A stretch of DNA of 64,000 nucleotides from Pseudarthrobacter sp. GA104 (GTDB taxonomy: Bacteria; Actinomycetota; Actinomycetes; Actinomycetales; Micrococcaceae), in NCBI RefSeq assembly GCF_009741265.1, contig NZ_WOWL01000001.1:2914001-2978000 (forward strand), in the 5' to 3' direction. The position numbers and the translations under genes are program-made. The stretch's first letter is position 1; each line of letters opens with the position of its first letter. Below the pieces are notes generated by a model, which had not been told where the DNA came from, made no database searches, and saw only the letters and a program-made list of their open reading frames with translations. This document shows, one piece after another, positions 7,484 through 9,319 of the stretch.

Positions 7484-8749
7484 CTAGCTTGCCTTGGCAG
7501 CGGCCGCGGCGCGCCGCTGGGCCAGCTTTATTTCCAGGACCGCGTCCATTGCCTGCTGGACGCGGTCAGCGGCTCCGGCGGCGCTGAAGGCTTTCTGCGC
7601 TTCTTCGAGGTGGACCAGGGCTTCTTCTGCTTCGCCCGCGGCCTTAAGGGACTTCCCCAGCAGCAAAGACACTTCCCCGGCGGTGTGCTTCGCAAGGTTG
7701 TCCCGCTCGGCATGGATTTCCCGGAGCTTCTCGACGGCGGCAACGATGTCCCCGGTCAGGTACAGCCACCGGGCGCGGATGAAGGCAACTTCCAGCTCAT
7801 CACTCTTGGTGCCGCTGACGATTGAAAAAGCAAGCTCGGCCCGCTCAATGGATGACAGCGTTTCAGGCTCCACAATTCCGGAGGACAGCCGTACCGCGGC
7901 GGACGCTTTATTGAAACGGGCCCACAGCTCGATGTCATTTGCCGGTGACAGCAGTTTCGCTGCCCGTTCGTGGTGTTTGACGCCCTCCACATAGTCGTGG
8001 CGCATAAACGCCACATTGCCGATGACCCAGGCCACCTCGCCGGCCAGCTGGGACATCGCGTGCTCATCCACCTGGGCGAGCAATTCCTGGCAGTACTTCC
8101 ACGCCTCATTGAGGCGGCCGCTTTCGGCCAACGCACCAATCAGTGCCCGGAGCGCGCCGATGGTGATCACTGAGCCCCTGGGCAACTGCTCCGCGAAGGC
8201 CACTGCCTCCGTTGCATGCTCCACGGCAGCCGTCAGCTGGCCCTGGCGCTGGCACACAACCGCGAGCATCTGCCGGGCGCGCGCGCCCAGCCCCACGGAT
8301 TCCCTGGCCATCGGGTGCTCGAGCAGCCTTTCCACAAGCTCCCTGCACTCCAGCAGGTCGCCATGCTTCAGCAGGCACTCGGCCTGCATGTAGCTCATGT
8401 TCCACCAGGCGCTGGTGTTTCGTCCGTCCAGGGCTATCTGCGCTGCTGAAGCCGCATGGCTGGCGGCGAGGGGATAGTCCCTCAGGTCCCAGGCCTGGCG
8501 GGCGTAGAGCCCTGCAAGGACGTACTCGGCGTCACTGACCGAGATGGGCTGGCTCCATGCCTCCAAGGCCTTCGGTGCAAGCTCCAGCCTGCGTGCCAGT
8601 TCTTCAATGACCTCCGCAGTTGGTTCCCTGCGGCCTGTTTCGAGTAGGGAAATGTAGCTGGGTGAATACAGGTCCTTGCCCAGTTCCGCCTGTGTCAGCC
8701 CCCGATCGAGCCTCTCCGCCCGGAGCTTCTCCCCGAATCCGTTGCCCAC
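7484..8749 (-). CDS. XRE-type HTH regulator with C-terminal TPR domain (RRNPP-like)
   Basis: 421 residues from GTG at 8749, preceded by a strong GGAGGAG. The frame stays open further upstream across the divergent peptide gene, but that extension is a shadow. Residues about 5-60 form an HTH_3/XRE DNA-binding domain (L-T-Q-A-E-L-G-K...Y-I-S-L-L-E-T-G-R-R-E-P). Residues about 80-400 are all-helical TPR-like repeats with alternating A/G/W/Y spacing, and an Ala-rich tail ends the protein. HTH plus TPR, no membrane segment and ~420 residues is the layout of NprR and related RRNPP peptide receptors. It is divergent from an exported small peptide with a duplicated motif, 128 bases away. I infer that it binds the re-imported peptide and regulates the shared intergenic region. 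A ligand-independent or housekeeping XRE-TPR regulator is the alternative. Confidence 0.85.
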   Translation of the reverse strand: MGNGFGEKLRAERLDRGLTQAELGKDLYSPSYISLLETGRREPTAEVIEELARRLELAPKALEAWSQPISVSDAEYVLAGLYARQAWDLRDYPLAASHAASAAQIALDGRNTSAWWNMSYMQAECLLKHGDLLECRELVERLLEHPMARESVGLGARARQMLAVVCQRQGQLTAAVEHATEAVAFAEQLPRGSVITIGALRALIGALAESGRLNEAWKYCQELLAQVDEHAMSQLAGEVAWVIGNVAFMRHDYVEGVKHHERAAKLLSPANDIELWARFNKASAAVRLSSGIVEPETLSSIERAELAFSIVSGTKSDELEVAFIRARWLYLTGDIVAAVEKLREIHAERDNLAKHTAGEVSLLLGKSLKAAGEAEEALVHLEEAQKAFSAAGAADRVQQAMDAVLEIKLAQRRAAAAAKAS

Positions 8750-8786
8750 AGGACTCCTCCTTTCTCCACAGGTTTCCCATTGGCGC

Positions 8787-8826
8787 TTGACAGCCGCTGT
8801 GGAAAACATTTTACAATGTATGTCAA
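8787..8826. promoter_or_regulatory. Promoter and inverted-repeat cluster between regulator and peptide genes
   Basis: TTGACA (8787-8792) and TACAAT (8812-8817) form a candidate sigma-A promoter for the peptide gene, with a long 19-bp spacer. The same stretch holds inverted repeats: TTGACA/TGTCAA (8787-8792 and 8821-8826) and ACATT-TTAC-AATGT (8806-8819), which covers the -10 box. Just outside, TCCACAG (8765-8771) pairs with CTGTGGA (8797-8803). Such symmetry over a promoter suggests operator sites for a dimeric regulator, most simply the divergent XRE-TPR protein. No convincing -10 is seen for the regulator gene itself. Confidence 0.5.
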
Positions 8827-8877
8827 CAAGGACAGTGCTGGCTTTGTAACGAATCCGACTCGTATTGAGGAACTTAT

Positions 8878-9105
8878 ATGTTGAAGAAGATTGCAGCTGC
8901 AGCCGCCTTGGCTGGGGCCTTAGCGTTTTCTGCGGCGGCTCCGGCTGTCCTGTCTGCAGGTTCCATTGCCGACACCGAACGAGTGGCTGTAGCCGGAACC
9001 GGAAACTGGCCGGATCCCGTCTCCACGGAGACCAAGGGCAAGAAGGCCAACAGCACCGAAACCAGCTACACCACCTACACGGGCAACTGGCCTGACCCGG
9101 TGTAA
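8878..9105 (+). CDS. Exported 75-residue pro-peptide with duplicated TGNWPDPV motif (putative signalling peptide)
   Basis: ATG at 8878, GAGG seven bases upstream, TAA at 9103-9105. Residues 1-27 are a clear signal peptide: M-L-K-K, an Ala/Leu hydrophobic core, and A-V-L-S-A before Gly28. The mature part is short, hydrophilic and unstructured. The octapeptide T-G-N-W-P-D-P-V occurs at 41-48 and again at 68-75, where it is the exact C-terminus. The linker is Ser/Thr-rich with a basic G-K-K patch at 54-56, and S-T-E-T also occurs twice (49-52, 59-62). Six of the eight codons differ between the two octapeptide copies, all synonymously. A strong terminator follows at once, so the gene is monocistronic. 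I know no named family. The organisation matches pro-pheromones of RRNPP systems; a small secreted structural peptide is the alternative. Confidence 0.8.
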   Translation: MLKKIAAAAALAGALAFSAAAPAVLSAGSIADTERVAVAGTGNWPDPVSTETKGKKANSTETSYTTYTGNWPDPV

Positions 9106-9132
9106 ACAGCTTCCTCACAACAGGAGGCGAGG

Positions 9133-9162
9133 AAAGCCCCGGAGCATCCGCTCCGGGGCTTT
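9133..9162 (+). terminator. Rho-independent terminator of the small-peptide gene
   Basis: A 12-bp perfect stem (AAAGCCCCGGAG at 9133-9144 against CTCCGGGGCTTT at 9151-9162) with a 6-base loop, followed by more T. It lies 28 bases after the peptide stop codon. Confidence 0.9.
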
Positions 9163-9204
9163 TCCTTTACCAAAAAGTTACCGATGCGCCGGATTCCAGG
9201 CAAC

Positions 9205-9242: not shown

Positions 9243-9319
<77 letters not shown>

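Follow-up and report, generated by a model that had tools for sequence, protein, structure and literature searches.

A candidate RRNPP-like peptide-receptor pair in Pseudarthrobacter, with receptor relatives across the Actinomycetes

Introduction

Could a regulator with tetratricopeptide repeats (TPR) and the small exported-type peptide encoded beside it form, in an actinobacterium, a signalling circuit of the RRNPP type? The question is raised by two divergent genes of Pseudarthrobacter sp. GA104 that lie in a stretch of 64,000 nucleotides (contig NZ_WOWL01000001.1, positions 2,914,001 to 2,978,000), hereafter the window. RRNPPA propeptides are exported mostly by means of a Sec signal peptide. 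In the excerpts of the literature on which we draw throughout, extracellular proteases release the signal from RRNPP precursors (PMC11343458), surveys of RRNPPA systems cover only Bacillota, with their mobile elements or viruses (PMC10075063, PMC9765709, PMC12700828), and actinobacterial signals are typically small molecules (PMC10075063), with butyrolactones and cyclic or modified peptides among them (PMC4748050).

An initial annotation of the window had proposed an RRNPP-type pair in an actinobacterium. This interpretation is supported by the pairing of the two genes in relatives, by covariation between peptide and receptor and by a predicted TPR superhelix. The pair is most likely an RRNPP-like peptide-receptor circuit in Actinomycetes, which would involve export, re-import and binding of the peptide. 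As far as we could find, linear peptide signalling of the type known in relatives of Bacillus is undescribed in actinobacteria: no such actinobacterial system is described among the matches listed from titles and abstract beginnings of open-licence papers in PubMed Central, a collection outside which subscription papers and preprints fall.

Results and discussion

Two divergent genes are kept together in orthologous loci

The features of the pair are as follows.
7484 to 8749, minus strand: receptor (regulator) gene, 421 residues from a GTG start, with a helix-turn-helix (HTH) domain at residues 3-54 and a TPR superhelix at residues 59-420.
8878 to 9105, plus strand: putative signal precursor gene, 75 residues, with a signal-peptide-like N-terminus, two octapeptide copies and a linker; kept beside the orthologous receptors examined.
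8998 to 9021, plus strand: internal octapeptide copy TGNWPDPV (residues 41-48), with only synonymous differences from the second copy.
9079 to 9102, plus strand: C-terminal octapeptide copy TGNWPDPV, which ends the precursor.
9131 to 9164, plus strand: predicted terminator hairpin of the precursor gene (-30.5 kcal/mol, z -6.2).

The open reading frames (ORFs) and the Pfam matches agree with the annotation of a 421-residue HTH and TPR regulator divergent from a 75-residue peptide, and the peptide ends in TGNWPDPV with an internal copy, as had been noticed. The receptor, whose start codon is preceded by AGGAGGA, matches an HTH family (PF13560, E 1.3e-11) and a TPR family (PF13424, TPR_12, E 8e-8). 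Structure prediction of the receptor gave a TPR domain: the AlphaFold model is a TPR superhelix with a mean predicted local distance difference test score (pLDDT) of 91.6. The window's genome encodes a single receptor of such type. The precursor begins MLKKIAAAAALAGALAFSAAAPAVLSAG, which resembles a signal peptide in having a charged n-region and a hydrophobic core (judged by eye here and by a simple hydropathy scan in relatives), and matches no Pfam family at E<=1. The strong terminator of the initial annotation corresponds to the hairpin at 9131-9164, which none of 200 shuffles equalled and which a simple terminator scan did not list.

The receptor was found in all 150 genomes sampled from the genus, and the 77 named receptor loci all belong to Arthrobacter, Pseudarthrobacter or Paenarthrobacter, except one labelled Micrococcaceae bacterium. 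Co-occurrence of regulator and peptide had been proposed as a check, and it held: a divergent precursor lies beside the receptor at 115/115 loci with at least 70% receptor identity and at 60/60 held-out loci, 59 of which a script identified by the motif, while one (L299, precursor start MVKK) was identified by eye. The two sets overlap, as 20 of the 60 loci share an already seen receptor (over the first 405 residues). Receptors at 54-70% identity have the precursor in 10/10 cases. The DNA motif of the peptide, GGNAAYTGGCCNGAYCCN, occurs in the window's genome only at this locus, twice, and its reversed control has 0 matches. Since the precursor is kept in orthologues and the motif is confined to the locus, the pair is not due to chance.

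Small ORFs with GNWPDP were also seen away from the receptor locus (L326, at G029:C1:1213576-1213625, L327 and L329). They comprise a leaderless ORF of 57 residues with three copies (genome G029), one of 44 residues and one of 20 residues with IGNWPDPM, and may be additional signals not linked to a receptor gene. One more match away from the locus (L328) lies in no plausible ORF.

The octapeptide copies are held to the same protein sequence

Across orthologous precursors the octapeptide is mostly of the form [T/I/V/S]GNWPDP[M/V/A], the first and last positions being hereafter P1 and P8. The proposal of two pheromone copies per precursor describes the window but not the whole group: the 99 distinct precursors at this level of receptor identity (>=70%) have, by pattern, one (n=3), two (59), three (10), four (26) or five (1) copies, a few of the counted ones being degenerate (GNWADQL), and distant members have up to eight. 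The position of the octapeptide at the C-terminus likewise stands for the window and for 95 of the 99 distinct precursors and is not obligatory, as the other four end otherwise. At six loci (L038, L039, L040, L045, L048 and L063) a degenerate first copy, GNWADQL, precedes intact IGNWPDPM copies.

First and last octapeptides are identical in 90 of the 96 precursors with two or more strict copies, where permuted partners gave a mean of 29.3 and a maximum of 45 identical pairs (20,000 permutations). The two copies of the window's precursor have six codon differences, none of which changes the residue. Within precursors dN/dS is 0.003, a value partly due to the copy-finding pattern, which fixed most residues of the octapeptide; a fair measure comes from P1 and P8, which were free in the search pattern and whose codon pairs are identical in 120 cases, synonymous in 66 and nonsynonymous in 6. 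Where silent changes have accumulated between copies, as in the window, the copies are not recent duplicates. This substitution pattern indicates that the precursor gene is genuine and under selection, which keeps the copies alike as protein. A length of only 75 residues and the lack of a Pfam match would also fit an ORF that arose by chance in conserved intergenic DNA, but such an origin is contradicted by the synonymous divergence between copies of identical protein sequence, and fits poorly with the hairpin terminator and with a precursor beside all orthologous receptors examined. We regard it as extremely improbable.

The peptide varies with the TPR domain of the receptor

Contact between peptide and receptor is indicated most strongly by covariation. 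A tree of 101 training receptors was searched for columns changing with the peptide, and three rules were fixed before the held-out loci were fetched; the 20 held-out loci with receptors identical to training ones were then dropped, and 39 of the remaining 40 were scored by script. According to the first rule, Val at P1 always goes with an aromatic residue at receptor position 132, and any other P1 with a non-aromatic one. This holds in 140/140 taxa, among them 39/39 held-out loci (22 and 17), and the fortieth, L299, agrees by eye. Among the 296 variable receptor columns, column 132 is the sole one that sorts P1=V without error in the 140 taxa; the next best are 127, 165, 131, 167 and 164. The P1=V state switches six times on the all-column tree and ten times on a tree made without the region, and the switches of P1 and residue 132 coincide because the sorting is perfect.

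A window test along the receptor (two trees, 140 taxa) associated P1 with residues 164-174 (p 0.004 and 0.013) and P8 with residues 192-202 (p 0.005 and 0.0003), with p values of 0.34 to 1 for the control traits (copy number, linker length and precursor residue 2). In the training set alone the signal was present for P8 (p 0.0004) and not significant for P1 (p 0.09). The third rule, by which P1 is Thr or Ser with Arg or Trp at residue 168 and Ile or Val with Gly, holds in 20/21 and 119/119 cases, with one exception, and depends on few clades. The covarying stretches are contained in the model helices 152-169, 172-186 and 194-209, which are successive in the TPR stack. The peptide therefore varies with the TPR domain, as the initial annotation had suggested checking: P1 with residue 132, and P1 and P8 with the stretches 164-174 and 192-202.

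A palindrome overlaps the predicted promoter of the precursor

The region between the genes contains the following predicted elements.
8787 to 8817, plus strand: predicted precursor promoter, TTGACA (8787-8792), a 19-bp spacer and TACAAT (8812-8817).
8810 to 8826, no strand: predicted operator, a 17-bp palindrome TTTACAATGTATGTCAA (TTKACA-N5-TGTMAA; element TTTACANNNNNTGTCAA) over the predicted -10.
8762 to 8806, no strand: further inverted repeat of the divergent region, with arms TTCTCCACAG (8762-8771) and CTGTGGAAAA (8797-8806).

Overlapping inverted repeats had been annotated in this gap of 128 bp. The scan returned one, with arms at 8762-8771 and 8797-8806, and the palindrome at 8810-8826 is more telling. 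In each of the 103 distinct upstream regions having both a TTGAC-type -35 and a TACAAT -10, the spacer measures exactly 19 bp; the pattern is missing in 33 other upstream regions, 26 of them beside receptors below 54% identity. A consensus promoter scan, which covers spacers of 16-18 bp only, gave no promoter. The palindrome has 0 mismatches in 119 of 123 orthologous regions and at most three in 14 of the 29 distant loci with an HTH receptor, whereas at loci of receptors without HTH its best match has 4-5 mismatches (20/20); at the threshold of three mismatches the two groups differ significantly (14/29 vs 0/20, Fisher p 0.0002). Loci L074 and L076, where contig ends cut the receptor, and L166 and L172, whose receptor ORF was misread by the script, were left out of the palindrome counts and of the precursor counts in distant relatives.

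Searched genome-wide, the strict palindrome has a site in 9 of 10 genomes and occurs at a single place in seven, including the window's genome; there are two sites in G110, three in G066 and none in G250, and the reversed control has one, in G029. A search for a regulon in the window's genome found no second palindrome and hence no targets beyond the receptor's own locus. For the further inverted repeat, the sequence CTGTGGAAAACATTTTACA occurs, at up to three mismatches, at one place per genome in five genomes, and its reversed control has a single hit, in the window's genome. Most simply, the HTH of the receptor would bind 8810-8826 and so control the receptor's own divergent promoters. Extra perfect palindromes were seen at G066:C1:597926, G066:C1:2773318 and G110:C1:1545285 (L330, L339 and L337).

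A palindrome found, in the window's genome, only at this promoter would also be expected if the HTH-TPR protein were a local transcription factor sensing something else and the precursor a secreted effector (an antimicrobial, an adhesin or a metal-binding peptide), for which the near-invariant Trp and Pro of the peptide array could also be cited. We consider this very improbable. The receptor stretches change with P1 and P8, and not with any of the three control traits, and the receptors without HTH described below keep a precursor, which a mere transcription factor leaves unexplained.

Relatives in the family, the order and the class

Within the family a receptor match was found in 61 of 120 sampled genomes, some of them HTH-only, and 40 matching places were taken as extra regions, the lowest-scoring being left out. 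One clade has receptors of about 345 residues that lack the HTH. All 20 that were counted have a divergent exported-type precursor that ends in or contains Trp-Pro (WP), with ends such as ...VGWWPH, ...VGSWPF and ...VNNWPY (L141, with two, L146, L147, L151-L153, L155, L158-L160, L162, L163, L165, L167, L169-L171, L173 and L175). Outside this count, L172 has a WP precursor and at L166 none was found. One such receptor was modelled and is a predicted TPR superhelix as well (mean pLDDT 96.2). Output by direct DNA binding is unlikely for these proteins.

The 29 distant receptors with an HTH (below 54% identity) are less uniform. Seven have clear repeated exported-type WP precursors, with up to eight copies (L127-L130, L148, L150 and L156), and five have leaderless candidates of 19-32 residues with VGDWPD or GDWPH at or near the end (L134, L138 and L142-L144). 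Five HTH-TPR receptors of one genus (L126, L131, L132, L133 and L145) have no recognisable adjacent peptide gene, and are either solo or served by unlinked signals.

Further away, matches to the receptor occur in 18 of 248 genomes of the order (at 1e-20), in 32 of 296 of the class (at 1e-15) and in 6 of 296 of a sample of the phylum (at 1e-20). At 22 of 32 loci of remote XRE-TPR homologues a micro-ORF of exported type, with W or CC among the nine C-terminal residues, adjoins the receptor gene, by a criterion picked post hoc, after a first look; the distal flanks used as control gave 2/32, and shuffles a mean of 0.05 (20 shuffles). These micro-ORFs (L188, L189, L191-L193, L209-L218, L220, L221, L223-L225, L227 and L228) have ends such as ...NWPKCC, ...WPGMCC and ...GGIWCC. 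They are mostly divergent from the receptor gene, but lie upstream on the same strand in L193 and L215 and downstream in L210, L212 and L221. The sole match outside the class (L303) has no W/CC micro-ORF, and searches of plasmids and phages gave no receptor relative at E<=1e-10 and 1e-5. We lean towards the view that these loci belong to a class-wide, undescribed superfamily of peptide pheromones of Actinomycetes. It would comprise HTH-TPR receptors and Rap-like receptors without HTH, each with an adjacent exported precursor, the core of the peptide being WP in Micrococcaceae and relatives and W or WP...CC in other families; receptor and peptide would diversify together, and arrays would reach eight near-identical signals.

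Comparison with known systems

One survey of RRNPPA systems asks for a receptor of 250-500 residues with TPRs and a directly adjacent propeptide gene (PMC10075063). The receptor of the window has 421 residues and its TPR_12 match, and the two genes are directly adjacent and divergent, 128 bp apart. The pair thus resembles the systems of Bacillota (PlcR-PapR, NprR-NprX, Rap-Phr, AimR-AimP) in its adjacent genes, in an HTH and TPR receptor of that size and in a small precursor with a signal-peptide-like N-terminus and a short candidate signal at the C-terminus. Receptors without HTH exist beside those with one, as Rap does beside NprR. The pair differs from these systems in its phylum, in a shared WP-type peptide motif and in its repeats, which are the usual state here (in 96 of the 99 distinct precursors of orthologues) and number up to eight in distant members; nor does a single-sequence search show a clear relation beyond the HTH and general TPR. 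A profile of the receptor family matches PlcR (2qfc) over 4-215, i.e., the HTH and part of the TPRs (E 1.8e-11), and designed PPR proteins score as well as PlcR in this comparison. The closest solved folds include Rap, NprR and AimR (Z about 20-24).

Precursors with more than one signal are already known in Bacillota, where propeptides have one to four pheromone copies or pseudo-copies (Felipe-Ruiz et al. 2024, PMC11343458). Their frequency depends on the family, and the copies often differ: repeated propeptides make up almost half of the Phr105 family (Felipe-Ruiz et al., PMC11343458, PMC9765709), and among atypically large propeptides 5/311 are repeated for Rap and 17/17 for NprR (Felipe-Ruiz et al. 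2022, PMC9765709). The precursors described here share with these repeated Phr and RRNPPA propeptides the several copies per precursor; they differ from what those excerpts describe in that nearly all are repeated, with mostly identical copies and arrays of up to eight. The very short leaderless candidates at L142-L144 resemble the leaderless communication peptides that act with RopB (PMC10518010), but are deduced from ORFs alone and occur in distant members, not in the pair of the window. Finally, the XRE-DUF397 pairs of Streptomyces (PMC10364602) likewise consist of an XRE regulator adjoining a small protein in Actinomycetes. The small partner in the window differs in lacking DUF397 and in being of exported type with repeats, and the regulator in having TPRs.

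A proposed circuit and the evidence on both sides

In the circuit that we propose, the precursor would be exported by Sec, extracellular proteases would free peptides of about eight residues, and an oligopeptide permease would return these to the cell. The peptide would then lie in the TPR domain with P1 near residues 127-132 and 164-168 and P8 near residues 192-202. The receptor on 8810-8826 would repress or gate both divergent promoters, and peptide binding would alter this control, giving a density- or export-dependent autoregulatory loop. As for the sign of control, repression by the DNA-bound form is likelier because the element overlaps the -10. The window's genome encodes eight oligopeptide-binding proteins of PF00496, a family also found in 11 of 14 control genomes.

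The return of the peptide is the step on which another explanation diverges. The receptor could act as an export monitor, binding octapeptides within unexported precursor when Sec or envelope export jams or precursor accumulates, with no peptide return. Covariation, operator and pairing fit this equally well, because they show only that the peptide meets the receptor, and the short leaderless candidates of distant members (L134, L138, L142-L144) and the unlinked leaderless ORF with three copies in G029 fit it too. Repeats separated by linkers of varying length, in arrays of up to eight copies, suit proteolytic release better, and in the account cited above extracellular proteases process the comparable RRNPP precursors (PMC11343458). 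We think an export monitor unlikely.

Several observations weigh against a signalling circuit of the RRNPP type. Two loci (L036 and L276) have a truncated precursor with the first copy alone in frame and the second out of frame, which is either a real loss or a sequencing error. With 88-99% identity to their closest counterparts in the training set, the held-out receptors are not strictly independent. The second covariation rule, that P8 is Ala exactly when residue 202 is Ile (12/12 vs 2/89 in training), was withdrawn after failing on the held-out loci, where 4/4 new precursors with P8=A go with Ala202; the evidence left for P8 is the signal over residues 192-202. Fifteen of the 29 distant HTH loci lack the palindrome (at least four mismatches), exactly like the loci of receptors without HTH, and conservation of the 17-mer could reflect a promoter function instead of an operator. 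Homologues that routinely lack the peptide gene had been named in advance as evidence against the pair: the orthologues examined are all paired, but among the 29 distant HTH members a candidate peptide is missing in 13, and doubtful matches are all that four others have (L139, L140, L149 and L164). With just seven clear precursors and five leaderless candidates among the 29, homologues without a peptide do exist. The relation to known receptors is also loose, as a single-sequence search reaches PlcR over the HTH only (E 0.11) and the fold match is unspecific, with LGN, subunits of APC, APPBP2 and MalT equal or better; the fold comparison was dropped as a test of membership for this lack of specificity.

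If the circuit is real, it would open peptide communication in a phylum that is important for soils and antibiotics, with a linear-peptide signal, a covarying TPR receptor and relatives of this receptor across the class. The pair supplies a testable specificity code (P1 with residue 132) and peptides ready for synthesis, and the receptors that have no DNA-binding domain yet retain the peptide offer a natural series.

Neighbouring genes

The pair is flanked by a SAICAR synthetase gene (PF01259) on one side and by a tRNA-Pro gene (9243-9319) on the other. Past the tRNA-Pro gene, on the receptor's strand, lie two adjacent genes of ATP-binding cassette (ABC) half-transporters (PF00664 and PF00005; 9424-13067 of the window).

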